Positions 32,879 to 35,800 of a stretch of 39,011 nucleotides of DNA are shown in pieces. Source of the stretch: Burkholderiales bacterium (GTDB lineage: Bacteria > Pseudomonadota > Gammaproteobacteria > Burkholderiales > Burkholderiaceae_C). Both the position numbers and the translations under genes were made by a program. Positions within the stretch are counted from its first letter, which is position 1. Each line of letters starts with the position of its first letter. A model generated the notes under the pieces. That model was not told the DNA's origin and made no database searches. It saw only the letters and a list, made by a program, of their open reading frames with translations. The stretch is taken from NCBI GenBank assembly GCA_016185015.1, contig JACPOI010000065.1, positions 1-39,011 of the forward strand, given 5' to 3'.

Positions 32879-35800
32879 ATGCCCAAGCGTTCAGACATCA
32901 AAAGCATTCTGATCATCGGCGCCGGCCCGATCATCATCGGCCAGGCCTGCGAGTTCGACTACTCCGGTGTGCAGGCCTGCAAGGCCCTGCGCGAAGAGGG
33001 TTACAAGGTCATCCTGATCAACAGCAACCCTGCCACGATCATGACGGACCCGGCCACGGCCGACGTCACCTACATCGAGCCCATCACCTGGCAGACGGTC
33101 GAGAAGATCATCGCCAAGGAAAAGCCCGACGCCATCCTCCCCACCATGGGTGGCCAGACCGCGCTGAACTGCGCGCTGGACCTGTGGCACCACGGTGTGC
33201 TCGAAAAGTACAAGGTCGAACTGATCGGCGCCACGCCCGAGGCCATCGACAAGGCCGAAGATCGCCAGAAGTTCAAGCAGGCCATGACCAAGATCGGCCT
33301 GGGCTCGGCGCGTTCGGGCATCGCCCACAGCATGGAAGAGGCCTGGGCGGTTCAGAAGACCGTAGGTTTTCCCACCGTCATCCGCCCCAGCTTCACGCTG
33401 GGCGGAACCGGCGGCGGCATCGCTTACAACGAAGAGGAGTTCGAGGAGATCCTGACTCGCGGTCTCGACCTAAGTCCGGTACATGAAGTCCTCATCGAAG
33501 AGAGCGCGCTGGGCTGGAAAGAGTTCGAGCTGGAGGTATACCAGATCATGCGCAACGCCTCGCTGGCGGTGCTGCGTGAAATCGGGGTGGACACGGGCGG
33601 CTCCAACGTGCAGTTCTCGATCAACCCCAAAGACGGGCGCATGATCGTGATCGAGATGAACCCGCGCGTGAGCCGTTCCTCGGCACTGGCGTCCAAGGCC
33701 ACGGGTTTCCCGATTGCGAAGGTCGCGGCCAAGCTGGCCGTGGGGTACACGCTGGACGAGCTGCGCAACGAGATCACGGGCGGCGCCACGCCGGCCAGCT
33801 TCGAGCCCAGCATCGACTACGTGGTCACCAAGATCCCGCGTTTCGCTTTCGAGAAATTCCCCACGGCCGACAGCCGGCTGACGACGCAGATGAAGTCGGT
33901 GGGCGAGGTCATGGCCATGGGCCGCACCTTCCAGGAATCTTTCCAGAAGGCCCTTCGCGGCCTGGAAGTGGGCGTCGACGGCATGAACGAAAAGACCCAG
34001 GACCGCGAGGTGCTCGAGAAGGAACTGGGCGAGCCCGGCCCCGAGCGTATCTGGTACGTGGGCGATGCCTTTGCCATGGGCCTGTCGGTGGACGAGGTCT
34101 ATGACCTGACCAAGATCGATAAGTGGTTCCTGGTGCAGATCGAGGAGATCGTGAAGATCGAGCTCGACCTGGACAAGCTGGCAGCGGAGAAGGGCGAGAA
34201 GGCCCTGGCTGCGCTGGACGCAAGCACCTTGCGCGCCTTGAAGAAAAAGGGTTTCTCCGACCGCCGCCTGGCCAAGCTGCTCAAGACCACCGAGAAGCAG
34301 CTGCGTGATACGCGTCGCAAGCTGGGCGTGCGCCCCGTTTACAAGCGCGTGGACACCTGTGCCGCCGAGTTCGCCACCAACACCGCTTACATGTACTCGA
34401 CCTACGAGGACGAGTGCGAGGCCGAGCCGACCAACAAGAAGAAGATCATGGTGCTTGGCGGTGGCCCCAACCGCATCGGCCAGGGCATCGAGTTCGACTA
34501 CTGCTGCGTGCATGCGGCCCTGGCCATGCGCGAGGACGGCTACGAGACCATCATGGTCAACTGCAACCCCGAGACCGTGTCCACCGACTACGACACCTCG
34601 GACCGCCTCTACTTCGAGCCGCTGACGCTGGAAGACGTGTTGGAGATCGTGGACAAGGAAAAGCCCACCGGTGTGATCGTGCAGTACGGCGGCCAGACCC
34701 CGCTCAAGCTAGCCCTGGGCCTGGAGGCCGAAGGCGTGCCGATCATCGGCACCAGTCCCGACATGATCGACGCGGCCGAAGACCGCGAGCGTTTCTCAGC
34801 CCTGCTGCGTACGCTGAACCTCAAGCAGCCGCCCAACGCCACCGCGCGCACCGAGCCGGAAGCTCTGGAGAAGGCCGCGACCCTGGGTTACCCTCTGGTG
34901 GTGCGCCCCAGCTACGTGCTGGGCGGCCGCGCCATGGAGATCGTCCATGAGCAGCGTGACCTGGAGCGTTATATGCGCGAGGCCGTCAAGGTCAGCAACG
35001 ACAGCCCCGTGCTGCTGGACCGTTTCCTGAACGACGCCATCGAGTGCGACGTGGACTGCCTGCGCGACCCCGAAGGCAAGACCTTCATCGGCGGCGTGAT
35101 GGAACACATCGAACAGGCTGGCGTGCACAGTGGCGACTCCGCCTGCTCGCTGCCGCCTTATTCGCTGTCCCAGGCCACGGTGGACGAGCTCAAGCGCCAG
35201 TCCGCCGCCATGGCCGGTGCCCTGAACGTGGTCGGCCTGATGAACGTGCAGTTCGCCATCCAGAAACAGGACGGCAAGGACGTGATCTTCGTGCTCGAAG
35301 TGAACCCGCGTGCCTCGCGCACGGTGCCTTACGTCTCCAAGGCCACGGGCATCCAGCTGGCCAAGGTGGCGGCACGCTGCATGGCCGGCCAGACCCTGGC
35401 CTCGCAGGGCATCACCAAGGAAGTGACGCCGCCCTACTTCAGCGTGAAGGAGGCCGTGTTCCCCTTCGTCAAATTCCCCGGTGTGGACACCATCCTCGGC
35501 CCCGAGATGAAGTCCACCGGCGAGGTGATGGGCGTGGGCAAGACCTTCGGCGAGGCCTTCGTCAAATCGCAGCTCGGTGCCGGTACGCGCCTGCCCACCT
35601 CCGGCCGGGTCTTCCTGTCGGTCAAGCAGAGCGACAAGCCGCGCGCCGTGGCCGTGGCCCGGGGCCTGATCGCCCTGGGTTTCACCATCGTGGCCACCAA
35701 GGGCACGGCGGCAGCCATCGAGGCCGCCGGCCTGGCCTGCGAGGTCGTCAACAAGGTGACCGAGGGTCGCCCCAACATCGTGGACATGATCAAGAACGAG

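Follow-up and report, generated by a model that had tools for sequence, protein, structure and literature searches.

Results

The carB frame of the window (the whole stretch of DNA analysed, 39,011 nucleotides) contains a foreign-looking patch followed by a loss of 120 bp, and this combination of mosaic and gap is very probably a chimera of the draft assembly (a foreign-looking patch plus a skip). We infer that the join arose during assembly rather than in the cell and that another organism was the source of the patch. The carB of the real organism is most likely ordinary, with about 1080 codons. Contig 51 of the source genome (G000), which makes up the entire window, belongs to a draft of 4.02 Mb in 66 contigs with a completeness of 95.76% and a contamination of 4.58%.

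Organisation of the carAB locus

All parts of the locus listed here lie on the + strand. carA (31715..32878), encoding the small (glutaminase) subunit of carbamoyl-phosphate synthase, is an open frame of 387 codons whose product scored 468.9 bits against TIGR01368 (cut-off, 307.35). Directly 3' of it lies the mosaic carB frame of 1040 codons (32879..36001), whose product as a whole exceeded the cut-offs of TIGR01369 (1406.5 bits; cut-off, 1027) and NF003671 (1626.4 bits; cut-off, 599), each in two stretches. The similar CarB proteins in named records were Comamonadaceae-like (Giesbergeria, Xenophilus, Paracidovorax, and Rhodoferax; 84–87%). The closest sampled relative (G015) has a CarB of 1080 aa and served as the DNA reference for the mismatch counts. 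Within the frame, a native 5' part (32879..33405) is followed by the foreign-looking patch (33428..33538), the junction lacking 120 bp (33538..33539), and a native 3' part (33539..36001), the DNA of which is 94% identical to that of G015 and which retains the second ATP-grasp half.

The 40-codon gap

A 40-codon in-frame gap had been claimed at this position in the original prediction, and both the gap and its coordinates were right: 120 bp are missing between 33538 and 33539, corresponding to E. coli residues 221–260 and to the GVHTGDS segment in relatives. The claims of a frame open on both sides and of an intact second half were likewise borne out by the single 1040-codon frame (32879–36001) and by the presence of the second ATP-grasp half with its GVHSGDS. 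Alignment with E. coli CarB (1bxr) showed that residues 1–220 of the window CarB, ending with V220 at 33538, correspond to E. coli residues 1–220 and that Y221 corresponds to residue 261. Positions 220–259 of the CarB profile were unmatched, leaving the first (carboxyphosphate) ATP-grasp domain incomplete, and the second (carbamate) domain was complete and aligned with 1bxr through residue 1072. When the window and 109 loci were searched by tblastn with the 1080-aa CarB of G015, the window alignment had 40 gap positions in total, and no other single alignment exceeded 29. The junction lies inside an 8-base palindrome, GGTATACC (33535–33542), possibly by chance. H243 had also been invoked in the original prediction; a literature search yielded no paper with that term.

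A foreign-looking patch in front of the gap

The deletion had been called clean, but 33428–33538 is unlike the corresponding DNA of the organism's own genus, a feature overlooked by the earlier reader because the comparison was made with E. coli. Judged by sequence affinity, carB is a mosaic and not a clean deletion. In comparison with G015, mismatches amounted to 25 of 549 bases (4.6%) upstream of the patch (32879–33427), 36 of 111 bases in the patch (33428–33538; 37 when compared without gaps), and 149 of 2463 bases (6.0%) downstream of the gap (33539–36001). The patch peptide was unlike every same-genus peptide readable at this position, and the genus has one usual form with close variants, G020 excepted. 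When carAB was divided into 100-bp tiles and compared with the sampled loci, the best-scoring match reached 90% or more for every tile except 33415–33514. The best-scoring match of tile 33415–33514 was 86% over 57 of its 100 bases and came from other genera. For tile 34315–34414, the best match (96.6% over 87 bases) was L034, a record with no known membership of the genus. The peptide rows, mismatch counts, and tiles all show that the affinity of the patch differs sharply from that of the flanks on both sides.

The shift away from native sequence is abrupt, at about 33424–33431. Since runs of 29 bases (33377–33405) and 17 bases (33407–33423) at the left seam are identical to G015, this seam can be placed no closer than about 33377–33430. 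The right end of the patch is exactly the gap position, and no long overlap was found at this seam; the nearest native-identical run is one of 17 bases (33508–33524), ending 14 bases before the gap. A stretch of carA (32122–32319; up to 32 of 111 bases differing from G015) was considered as a second divergent patch and rejected; it is taken as ordinary variation because it matches G020 at 91%.

The whole-genome search for a donor of the patch covered Pseudomonadota. No donor was found in 398 Pseudomonadota genomes, 62 of which had a match, G000 itself included; the best-scoring of the others matched at 77% over 113 bases, and short pieces reached 97% over 29 bases. Nor was a donor found in 250 genomes from the order to which G450 belongs (79% for the best-scoring match), in plasmid records (best match listed, 77% of 48 residues), or in viral contigs (three loci at 58–60%). 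The best-scoring matches overall were 79–80% and came from other families. Nine Pseudomonadota loci share 75–87.5% of the 48-residue stretch of the patch, with G450 being the best. In general, an ELEV ending such as that of the patch is more usual outside Pseudomonadota.

The lost segment in relatives

The full segment was present in 27 of 29 aligned loci (22 of the same genus, six of the same family, and one of the same order). The absence of the block in the two exceptions has other causes: L020 (G005) aligned in two pieces (209|278), residues 210–277 being missing with a change of frame, and L032 starts at residue 256, inside the segment. A CarB match was obtained in 22 of 25 sampled same-genus genomes, and the segment was present in 21 of these 22 matches, the exception being the frame-changing loss in G005, a 410-contig draft. 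The three genomes that gave no CarB match (G017, G019, and G021) are 83, 70, and 94% complete, and we take them as presumed draft gaps; they could also be read as carB loss in the genus, and are counted in that sense against a chimera.

Second copies and the need for the gene

In a passage of PMC6245113, one carAB enzyme is said to serve both arginine and pyrimidines in most Gram-negative bacteria. The suggestion that a second carB might exist elsewhere found no backing, as, apart from the window carB, a search of the genome matched ATP-grasp-like frames only weakly. The missing 120 bp were not found elsewhere in the assembly, where only the two window flanks matched well and the next matches were short (E of 0.009 and above). 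pyrB is kept in G000, and a second carbamoyltransferase-like gene fell below the pyrB cut-off. Carbamate kinase was considered as an alternative source of carbamoyl phosphate and rejected, having only weak matches below the cut-off; no arcC in G000 exceeded this cut-off, which was passed in only two of 14 control genomes. No 16S gene was found in G000 by a search that also missed it in five of 14 control genomes, and 16S absence is common in draft bins.

Shared words in carB and its breaks in other drafts

Exact shared words of carB were counted against 87 loci with no known membership of the genus, in 36 bins of 30 codons each. Sharing of 31-mers peaked at the lost block: residues 241–270 ranked first (158; median, 19) and residues 211–240 third (104). 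For 21-mers, these two bins ranked second and third, after residues 571–600.

Several other drafts are damaged at this block. In addition to G005, G841 (L177, G841:C8, complement of 1–2057) has lost 27–28 codons in frame (225|253), with EVVRDR joined to AQTLTDKEYQ. carB is split between contigs within residues 205–300 in G034, G037, G879, and G928, and a partial copy ends at a contig edge within the same residues in G860, G873, and G723. G020 (L178, G020:C242, about 6001–6400) contains about 400 bp of Pseudomonas-like sequence (86–88% in two 200-bp tiles), which sits between native Burkholderiales stretches and ends in the lost block, with an intact frame of 1080 codons; this tract is either chimeric or the result of genuine recombination.

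Other irregularities were seen in carB of these drafts. The G841 copy has a second break near residues 565–588. In G009 (L010/L149, G009:C10), an in-frame fusion links carA to residue 49 of carB (DIAY|NPATIMTDP); it lies at another conserved block and leaves one open frame. carB of G028 (L179, G028:C1:1565000-1570000), a single-contig genome, is split over three frames, probably through uncorrected long-read indels or base-call errors and not by the mechanism proposed for the window. The match in G946 (L168, G946:C251) runs through seven TGA and one TAA codons in several pieces of low identity and is either a degraded copy or a product of poor assembly.

The break survey covered 299 family genomes, four of which gave no match, and the 32 that had at least two matches or whose best E exceeded 0 were examined, G000 aside. 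Among the matches listed, 39 break events were counted in 27 broken genomes, with G708, G772, G781, and G940 (whose pieces share one frame) and G833 (a full copy) counted as unbroken; a truncated carB giving one match at an E of 0 would escape this count. Nine of the 39 events, including those of G028 and G946, fell in residues 205–300, where 3.5 were expected (binomial P of 0.006, for an interval chosen after the breaks had been seen); five of 39 fell in residues 211–270 (P of 0.06). This clustering at residues 205–300 is suggestive, not strong.

Discussion

Three options had been offered in the original prediction: a crippled CarB, a half-active enzyme, or an assembly skip of ~120 bp. The skip is favoured, in the stronger form of a foreign-looking patch plus a skip, and a crippled or half-active CarB gained no positive support, the segment being present in 21 of 22 same-genus matches. 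Shared words are described in a passage of PMC8172020 as places where k-mer assemblers can build paths present in no genome. At such a site, a carB block with DNA nearly equal in many genera, the assembly would have left native carB within a run shared with the carB of another organism (about 33377–33430), would then have followed the sequence of that organism for about 110 bp, and would have returned to native carB at 33539, leaving out 120 bases that are among the most shared. We counted in favour of a chimera the 29- and 17-base native-identical runs at the left seam, and the finding of a single carB together with pyrB and no arcC over the cut-off. Counted against it were the retention of the frame across the loss (a chance of one in three; the losses in G841 and G009 keep the frame too), the abrupt right-hand seam, a best-scoring patch match of 79–80% in searches mainly of Pseudomonadota, and the record of G000, which does not mention a metagenome bin.

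A real inactivated carB is unlikely. An event in the cell, in which a foreign carB tract was recombined in and 120 bp were lost, leaving a dead carB and a cell that takes arginine and uracil from its surroundings, would agree with the frame being open across both seams and with the failure to find a second carB in the genome. We nevertheless regard it as quite improbable: the open carA frame scores above its family cut-off, the remaining carB is 94% identical to that of G015 without further gaps, pyrB is kept, same-genus CarB proteins have the segment with the one exception of G005, and the same conserved block is damaged in several other drafts. It is also very improbable that the junction is real in the sense that a Comamonadaceae relative, having recombined with a foreign carB, lost this conserved segment from its first ATP-grasp half and either is auxotrophic for arginine and uracil or has another route to carboxyphosphate or carbamate. 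Another reading takes the patch as native sequence evolving fast in this species, with only the 120-bp loss being an assembly error. The patch still aligns with CarB without gaps and is shared in part by the nine Pseudomonadota loci; however, no other same-genus genome except the G020 mosaic shows such divergence, which starts abruptly at about 33424–33431 and ends exactly at the gap, and we consider this reading highly improbable. A plain in-frame deletion in the native gene, which might leave CarB active in its carbamate-phosphorylating half alone, would account for 40 missing codons, a kept frame, and the presence of the second half, but is hardly credible because the 111 bp before the gap are not native-looking.

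With an assembly chimera as the preferred explanation, the mosaic probably has no significance as biology and says little about the real bacterium. It is rather a warning that the carB blocks common to many genera are where drafts suffer breaks, deletions, or splices, some of them in frame. In such drafts, an essential enzyme can look crippled or mosaic and still pass family cut-offs, and auxotrophies or 'half enzymes' inferred from them need a read check; such a check should also come before any further claim that this CarB is crippled or half-active.

Like E. coli CarB (1bxr), the window CarB has both halves, adjoins carA, and passes the curated cut-offs. The two proteins align in two stretches (1–231 and 260–1072), and the window CarB differs in lacking E. 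coli residues 221–260 of the carboxyphosphate domain and in having 37 residues before the gap that are unlike its genus. Although the right-hand seam has no long shared word, unlike the chimeric joins of k-mer metagenome assembly as a passage of PMC8172020 describes them, the window mosaic resembles such joins in being a mosaic whose left seam is compatible with DNA shared between genomes and in belonging to a 66-contig draft.
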